Positions 21,521-23,731 of a stretch of DNA of 56,890 nt are shown in pieces; within the stretch, counting starts at the first letter, position 1, and each line of letters opens with the position of its first letter. The notes under the pieces are model-generated. The model was not told the origin of the DNA, ran no database searches, and saw only the letters and a list, made by a program, of their open reading frames with translations. The position numbers and the translations under genes were made by a program. The stretch is from Syntrophomonadaceae bacterium (GTDB lineage Bacteria; Bacillota; Dethiobacteria; DTU022): assembly GCA_003554615.1 (NCBI GenBank), contig PWGX01000008.1:1-56890 (forward strand), given 5' to 3'.

Positions 21521-21898
21521 ATGCAAAAGGTACTTTTCAGCCTTAAGAATGCCTGTATAGGCCTGAGGCACTGCTTTTGTACCCAGCGCAATATGGTTGT
21601 ACATGCAGTTATCGGCGCCGTTGTGCTTTTAACGGCATTTTACCTGCATATACCGCTTACCGGAATGCTTTTTTTGCTCACAGCAATTATGGCTGTTATG
21701 GTAACAGAAGTGCTTAATACCGCCCTTGAACAGGTGATTGACCTGTTTACTACAGAGCGCAATTACTTTGCCCAAAAAGCAAAAGATCTAGCCGCCGGGG
21801 CCGTCCTGCTCACCTCTTTGTTTGCTGTCGTGGTGGGCCTGTGTATCCTTGGACCGCCCCTGCTGGAGCTGTTCAGGGACTTTTTGCTGCTTTATTAG
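21521..21898 (+). CDS. dgkA: diacylglycerol/undecaprenol kinase
   Basis: FSLKNACIGLRHCFCTQRNMVVH...VMVTEVLNTALEQVIDLFT. Confidence 0.93.
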   Translation: MQKVLFSLKNACIGLRHCFCTQRNMVVHAVIGAVVLLTAFYLHIPLTGMLFLLTAIMAVMVTEVLNTALEQVIDLFTTERNYFAQKAKDLAAGAVLLTSLFAVVVGLCILGPPLLELFRDFLLLY

Positions 21899-21909
21899 GA
21901 GGTGGAATT

Positions 21910-22737
21910 ATGCTAAATGAAAGCCTCCTGGCAACGGCGCGGGCGGCCAGGATCAGGGCTTATGCCCCTTATTCCGGATTTCCGGTCGGCGCCGCCCTGC
22001 TTACTGAAGAAGGCGCGGTTATAACCGGGGCAAATGTTGAAAATTCTTCTTCCGGCATGACTGTTTGCGCTGAAAGGGCAGCTGTCATGGCGGCAGTCCA
22101 TGCCGGTTACCGTTCCTTTAAAAAAATTGCCGTTGTGGCCGATTGTTCGCCGCCTCCTTCTCCCTGTGGGGCCTGCAGGCAGGTTTTATGGGAATTGGCC
22201 GGCCCTGTTGAAGTAATTATGGGGAACCTGGAGAATGAAATATTGACGGAATCGCTGCAGGATTTATACCCCAACCCCTTTGGTTGTGGGAAGTGGATTG
22301 ATAATCCTGTGGATGAGAGTTTGTTTAATTCTGTGGAAGGCTGGCGGATACCGGTATCTTTTCATCCAATCGGTTACGTGGCCAATGATTTTAATGATTC
22401 CGATCATATTCCCGGCAATTACAAAGAGCTGCTGTCCAGGGTTGTCATCGCCCCGGAATTTGAAGAAGGCCTTTACCGGATCGAGGAAGAAGAGAAAATA
22501 AATATCATATCTTACCTGCACCGGGCCCGGGGATATACATTGAAAGGCAGGCGGCCGGGCCGGGGAAACGAAGTTTACGGCGTTTTTGTCTGCCGGGCTC
22601 CTTTAAGGCCCAATTCCATTGCCCAGACCACGGTAGACCTGGTTGACAGGGACAATAATGTTCTGACAGTGAGAGGTGCGGATCTGGCCAACGGGACGCC
22701 GATCCTTGATTTGAAGACGATCATGCCGGGCAATTAA
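21910..22737 (+). CDS. cdd: cytidine deaminase fused to a C-terminal TrmO/TsaA-like (UPF0066) domain
   Basis: N-term CDA motifs YAPYSGFPVGAALL, CAERAAV, PCGACRQVLWE; C-term FHPIGYVANDF...GVFVCRAPLRPNSIAQTTVDLVDRDNNVLTVRGADLANGTPILDLKTIMP matches the TsaA/TrmO signature. One uninterrupted frame. Confidence 0.88.
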   Translation: MLNESLLATARAARIRAYAPYSGFPVGAALLTEEGAVITGANVENSSSGMTVCAERAAVMAAVHAGYRSFKKIAVVADCSPPPSPCGACRQVLWELAGPVEVIMGNLENEILTESLQDLYPNPFGCGKWIDNPVDESLFNSVEGWRIPVSFHPIGYVANDFNDSDHIPGNYKELLSRVVIAPEFEEGLYRIEEEEKINIISYLHRARGYTLKGRRPGRGNEVYGVFVCRAPLRPNSIAQTTVDLVDRDNNVLTVRGADLANGTPILDLKTIMPGN

Positions 22738-22843: not shown

Positions 22844-23731
22844 ATGCACCGTTCGGGTTTTGTGGCCTTGATTGGCCGGCCTAATGTCGGAAAATCGACC
22901 TTGCTCAATGCCCTGGTCAAAGAGAAAGTGGCTATTATATCTGAACGCCCCCAGACCACGAGGAATCAAATCAGGGCGGTATTGACCAGGCCTGAAGATC
23001 AACTGATCTTTATAGATACGCCCGGCCTGCACAAACCGAAGCATAAGCTTGGCTCGGCGATGGTCCAAAAAGCTCGCAATACAATCCACGAGGTGGATCT
23101 GATTTACTTTATTGTTGAAGCCCATTATCCACCGGGCGGGGGAGACCATTACATAGCTGAGATCCTGCAAAATTCTGTCACCCCTGTATTTTTAATCATG
23201 AACAAAACTGACCTTGCAGCGCCGGAAAAGCTCGATACCCACAGGGATCTATATCAGAGGCTGTGTCCTTTCACAGAGCATTTTTCCGTTTCTGCCCTTC
23301 AAGGTCATAATTTGGCGTATTTGGTGGAAACCACCGCTTCGTATTTTCCGGAAGGGCCGCAATACTATCCTCCGGATATGGTTACCGATCAACCGGAACG
23401 CTTTATTGCCGCGGAAATTATCCGGGAAAAGCTTATTACCCTGACCAGGCAGGAAATCCCCTTTTCCGTAGCAGTGGTCATCGAAGAAATGAAGCCCAGG
23501 GAAGATGGCGAATTACTTGACATTTGGGCGGAAATATACGTGGAAAGGAAATCCCAGGTAGGAATAATTGTTGGTAAAGGCGGGGCCATGCTAAAGGAGG
23601 CCGGAACCAGGGCCAGGCAGGAACTGGAGGCCCTGTTCGGACAGCATATTTTTCTTGACCTGAGGGTTAAAGTGAAGCGAGAATGGCGCAATCGCGATGA
23701 GGAATTGCGCCGCCTGGGTTACAGCGACTAA
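22844..23731 (+). CDS. era: GTPase Era
   Basis: GRPNVGKSTLLNALVKEKVAIISERPQTTRNQIR...DTPGLHKP...NKTD; KH domain GIIVGKGGAMLKEAGTRAR. Confidence 0.98.
   Translation: MHRSGFVALIGRPNVGKSTLLNALVKEKVAIISERPQTTRNQIRAVLTRPEDQLIFIDTPGLHKPKHKLGSAMVQKARNTIHEVDLIYFIVEAHYPPGGGDHYIAEILQNSVTPVFLIMNKTDLAAPEKLDTHRDLYQRLCPFTEHFSVSALQGHNLAYLVETTASYFPEGPQYYPPDMVTDQPERFIAAEIIREKLITLTRQEIPFSVAVVIEEMKPREDGELLDIWAEIYVERKSQVGIIVGKGGAMLKEAGTRARQELEALFGQHIFLDLRVKVKREWRNRDEELRRLGYSD

Follow-up and report, generated by a model that had tools for sequence, protein, structure and literature searches.

A cytidine deaminase fused to a TsaA/UPF0066 domain at the cdd locus of one bacterial family

At the usual cdd locus of the window (the whole 56,890-nucleotide stretch of DNA analysed here), a single reading frame joins a cytidine deaminase to a TsaA/UPF0066 domain. 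This architecture is uncommon, as it occurs in one family of uncultured bacteria in everything we searched, and its full-length recurrence across that family is far beyond chance. We consider it fairly probable that the product is bifunctional, uniting an ordinary cytidine salvage deaminase with a class VIII SAM-binding domain that has its own substrate.

The frame opens with an ATG at 21910, preceded by a strong Shine-Dalgarno sequence, AGGAGGTGG, and closes with a TAA at 22735-22737, running through 275 codons with zero internal stops. It is laid out as a cytidine deaminase (residues 1-125), a linker (126-144) and a TsaA/UPF0066/TrmO_N β-barrel (about 145-272), and Pfam recognises both halves: dCMP_cyt_deam_1 at 3.6e-16 over residues 4-103, and TrmO_N at 5.6e-20 over residues 171-272. 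The gene order in the window is rnaY-like HD protein, ybeY, dgkA, cdd-TsaA, era, recO, flavodoxin-like and glyQ, and rnaY-ybeY-dgkA-cdd-era-recO is the usual cdd locus. The gene and its immediate neighbours are:

21910..22737, plus strand: cdd-TsaA fusion gene, 275 aa and stop (domain profiles, full-length homologues)
21521..21898, plus strand: dgkA, upstream neighbour, ending 11 nt before the fusion start (DAGK_prokar match)
22844..23731, plus strand: era, downstream neighbour (GTPase and KH_2; position conserved in relatives)

The earlier note had described a deaminase frame at the dgkA-cdd-era locus that runs stop-free into a complete TsaA/UPF0066 domain with the deaminase motifs CAE and PCGAC intact. 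All of this is borne out: by the gene order, by a barrel model that aligns over its full length with the structure 2nv4, and by the motifs themselves, found as CAER at residues 53-56 and PCGAC at 85-89. As a side observation, most of the relatives read (for example L072, L083 and L155) carry a DUF881 gene between dgkA and cdd, which is missing from the window (21895-21910) and from L061.

The genomes that we compared are largely fragmented assemblies; the fusion was found in 32 of the 36 searched from the window's family (29 full-length copies and three cut at contig ends), spanning 17 genera at 55-95% identity, and no unfused cdd was found among these 36. Other families of the same order and class have solely unfused cdd, which in sister families occupies the corresponding locus wherever that locus was read. 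Across 399 genomes sampled evenly from the phylum, only the window's family gave full-length matches, the remaining listed matches covering the deaminase part and at most a short run beyond it, and a further class (113 genomes) gave zero fusion matches. A narrow peptide-pattern scan with the window protein, which was the sole coverage of other phyla, returned one other full-length fusion, whilst a viral collection yielded deaminase-only matches and one weak longer match (L193, 30% over residues 2-195). The nearest named fusion record is SKMK01000022.1, from the MAG Syntrophomonadaceae bacterium CSSed162cmA_245. That a sequencing or assembly error erased a stop between two genes, a doubt raised in the earlier note, is a rival whose probability we put close to nil, and we reject it as the origin of the fusion: the frame is real in 32 genomes, at the spread of identities given above. 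The accompanying doubt, that such a fusion is already documented as common, fails as well, with one family among the searched genomes and no report of it found in open-access PMC texts.

Four of the 36 family genomes have no fusion match, and at least one of these, G010, retains the locus with cdd missing: in this member of the window's genus (L174:5286-7524) the order is dgkA-DUF881-era, and cdd-TsaA is absent between DUF881 and era. This is an apparent loss of the sole cytidine deaminase, and the cdd-TsaA gene can therefore be lost.

How did the two domains come together? A maximum-likelihood tree of 86 TsaA domains gathers the fused ones, on a long stem, into a single group (support 100/99), hence one origin followed by divergence, and the tree gives no reliable pointer to the unfused source group. 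We also looked for a precursor with adjacent cdd and tsaA genes, and found no cdd in the short stretches, mostly 1.5-2 kb long, that border unfused TsaA genes. Mean pairwise identity is 66% in the deaminase half and 65% in the TsaA half, and falls to its lowest value between them:

22285..22341, plus strand: variable inter-domain linker, residues 126-144 (21.5% mean pairwise identity)

The TsaA-half dN/dS (Nei-Gojobori) is 0.02-0.14 in ten pairs and the deaminase half is much alike, save that in the closest pair the deaminase-half changes are too few for a useful ratio. Purifying selection on the TsaA half is as strong as that on the deaminase half, with the linker exempt, and, judged by selection, both halves look functional. 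A degenerating TsaA domain is rejected by these ratios. We likewise discarded the idea that the TsaA half is translated separately, starting within the frame: the linker has no conserved in-frame start codon, and across residues 118-160 the sole column with start-like codons in at least eight of 30 genomes is residue 157 (13/30), which lies inside the barrel.

The deaminase half is of the tetrameric type, exceeding the cut-off of NCBIfam TIGR01354 (tetrameric cytidine deaminase; 123.7 bits against 113.65) and matching Cdd structures, including 1jtk and 2d30, in Foldseek. Its features are:

21910..22284, plus strand: cytidine deaminase domain, residues 1-125, tetramer type, with C53, E55, C86, C89 and, as the conserved C-terminal Phe, F124 (Pfam, NCBIfam, Foldseek)
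22066..22077, plus strand: CAER motif, residues 53-56, with zinc ligand C53 and catalytic E55 (sequence; invariant columns)
22162..22176, plus strand: PCGAC motif, residues 85-89, with zinc ligands C86 and C89 (sequence; P85, C86, G87 and C89 invariant)

Among the 27 fusions aligned, deaminase features are invariant or nearly so, and C53, A54, E55, R56, C86 and C89 do not vary at all; the numbering of the zinc ligands and catalytic Glu equals that of B. subtilis Cdd. Position 48 (22051-22053) behaves differently: the family mostly keeps Tyr there, whereas the window protein has Ser, and several members of its genus have Ser, Pro or His. In known deaminases Tyr48 contributes to contacts with the substrate and between subunits, so its replacement may alter salvage activity, substrate range or stability.

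The TsaA half exceeds the gathering cut-off of Pfam PF01980 (72.1 bits against 26.8). Modelled alone from 69 sequences, it reached a mean pLDDT of 93.5 and a pTM of 0.84, and superposed on SAM-bound AF0241 (2nv4) with a TM score of 0.87 and 1.7 Å over a whole-length alignment; YaeB-like and TrmO structures ranked next. The model thus assigns this half to the class VIII β-barrel fold. The two-domain model has a pTM of 0.47 and leaves the domain arrangement and assembly unpredicted. The barrel and the residues aligned with its SAM site are:

22342..22725, plus strand: TsaA/UPF0066/TrmO_N β-barrel, residues 145-272, from invariant W145 (profile, alignment, model)
22417..22419, plus strand: N170, at the SAM-binding Gln position, AF0241 Q22 or E. 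coli Q25 (alignment)
22594..22614, plus strand: R229 (AF0241 R82) through R233-P234-N235 (alignment; RPN invariant)
22681..22716, plus strand: D258 (AF0241 D111) and K269 (AF0241 K122, a partner-subunit residue) (alignment)

In both AF0241 and TrmO the SAM pocket is formed by two subunits, Lys122 of AF0241 being supplied by the partner, and the known contacts are Arg82, Asp111, Lys122 and Gln22 in AF0241 and Arg92, Asp125, Lys136 and Gln25 in E. coli TrmO, where mutation of Gln25 sharply cuts m6t6A formation (PMC4132733). The fusions retain three of these four contacts, with Arg at the R82 column in 32/33, Asp at D111 in 33/33 and Lys at K122 in 33/33. The fourth has changed from Gln to Asn: its column holds Asn in 25/33 fusions, Gln in 1/33 and sometimes Arg, compared with Gln in 37/52 unfused TsaA domains. 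The TsaA half very probably binds S-adenosylmethionine.

Should this half be called TrmO? The fusion scores 72.5 bits against TIGR00104 (TrmO), below the 93.25 cut-off; it has no PRQ motif of the E. coli TrmO kind; and it ends directly after the barrel, lacking the C-terminal DPRxxY domain on which E. coli TrmO depends (PMC4132733). These three features argue that its proper name should be TsaA/UPF0066, class VIII-like, and not TrmO. The label of "TrmO-like tRNA methyltransferase" given previously holds insofar as the SAM-site residues are mostly kept, and gives way at the replaced Gln, the absent DPRxxY domain and the curated cut-off. Among the 24 family genomes that are at least 90% complete, 19 have no TrmO_N match besides the fusion. 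This leaves room for a TrmO-like tRNA role, in which the TsaA half would make m6t6A37 in tRNA-Thr(GGU) while the deaminase tetramer takes the place of the missing C-terminal tRNA-binding domain. Besides the lack of a second TrmO_N protein in most of the family, the three retained SAM contacts are in keeping with such a role, as is the loop ahead of GVF (RxGRGN), which by eye resembles the RPPRLGGN loop found in long TrmO more than its counterpart in the short unfused relatives. We nonetheless find it doubtful, considering the low profile score, the loss of PRQ and of the DPRxxY domain, and the total absence of TrmO_N proteins from many genomes in the order and class; because of the latter, m6t6A looks dispensable and is probably not essential for this class.

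Perhaps the barrel serves as a sensor instead, such that SAM bound between subunits would tune or stabilise the deaminase tetramer with no methyl transfer. This would suit the native salvage locus, a superfamily SAM site that is built between subunits, and the change in the very Gln by which the amino group of SAM is held. Yet the remaining pocket, RPN included, is conserved as well as in unfused relatives, and we know of no TsaA-domain sensor that could serve as precedent, which makes this reading rather improbable in our view.

The wider company kept by TsaA bears on a further possibility. Elsewhere in the phylum, genomes carry TsaA fused to FmdE (L092, L151), to a UvrA-like ATPase (L115) and to RNase H (L138). 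The domain acts like a mobile add-on, with no obvious substrate common to its partners, and partner identity is therefore poor evidence of a shared one. This weighs on the idea of coupled chemistry, whereby the protein would deaminate and methylate the same nucleoside or RNA. Whilst the physical fusion is conserved across the whole family, the deaminase is of the free-nucleoside tetramer type, the linker is variable and related genomes join TsaA to these other proteins; we give such coupling only a slim chance. The earlier note had entertained it too, and it gains no support beyond the fusion itself, with several unrelated TsaA partners in related genomes.

Some of these other proteins deserve a description of their own. 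The UvrA-like case (L115:137-3511, minus strand, G093 contig C1) is a 1125-aa ABC ATPase frame with TrmO_N at residues 159-254 (3.6e-19), in which the last SAM-site motif reads IMPY in place of DIKPY, and in G294 (L138:1441-2319, plus strand) TrmO_N is in frame with RNase H (PF00075, 3.1e-46), a further case of TsaA joined to a protein related to nucleic acids. Within about 43 kb, contig C30 of G047 (244000-290500; L104, L105, L106) carries four TsaA paralogues, 263-300 aa in length, three of which resemble the FmdE-fused type of L092.

We return to the bifunctional protein that we favour. Its N-terminal half, the sole cytidine deaminase detected in the cell, would perform ordinary pyrimidine salvage, converting cytidine and deoxycytidine to uridine and deoxyuridine. 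Its C-terminal half would be a class VIII SAM-binding β-barrel belonging to the TsaA/TrmO superfamily. The barrel was joined to the deaminase a single time, in the family ancestor and at the native cdd locus, and both halves have since been kept under purifying selection. We posit that the barrel binds SAM as a dimer, with K269 coming from the partner subunit as in AF0241; the four barrels of a deaminase tetramer could pair into two dimers of this kind. The TsaA half would then methylate its own substrate, most likely RNA or a nucleoside, independently of deamination. Against bifunctionality stand the replacement of Gln22/25 in the SAM site, the low pTM of the two-domain model, and the changes of Y48 in several members of the window's genus, which could alter salvage.

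What might that substrate be? To our knowledge, m6t6A37 formation is the sole reaction demonstrated for class VIII SAM enzymes, and their homologues are widespread. The TrmO discovery paper raised the possibility that archaeal homologues, which have no DPRxxY, have other targets (PMC4132733). We could speculate that the TsaA half works with pyrimidine nucleosides, either as a novel class VIII methyltransferase or as a SAM sensor, with one polypeptide thereby tying cytidine salvage to the cell's SAM or methylation state, an idea that we hold to be unlikely. If true, it would give the TsaA superfamily a second biochemical role besides m6t6A. A small, family-fixed fusion with an assayable partner makes the function of other TsaA domains directly testable.

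Amongst known systems, the closest solved structure is AF0241 (2nv4), an archaeal single-domain UPF0066 protein with SAM bound, which shares the single-domain barrel (TM 0.87) at about 31% identity; it is unfused, and its PRQ and KKY correspond to PxN and KT in the fusion. TrmO/YaeB (E. coli, P. aeruginosa 7btu; TIGR00104) has the same barrel fold and the same Arg, Asp and Lys SAM contacts, whereas the fusion has Asn for the Gln of PRQ, an N-terminal deaminase, no DPRxxY and a score below the cut-off. In TsaA-FmdE proteins, a fusion already in the literature (PMC2954224), TsaA is likewise covalently joined to another domain, but the partner differs, and in the FmdE fusions seen here TsaA is N-terminal. 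Lastly, the tetrameric Cdd enzymes (B. subtilis 1jtk and B. anthracis Cdd-2 2d30, at 45-46% identity in the structural match) share the fold, the zinc and catalytic residues, the C-terminal Phe and the cdd locus with the fusion, which differs from them in its added C-terminal TsaA domain and, in the window protein, in the change of Y48 to Ser.
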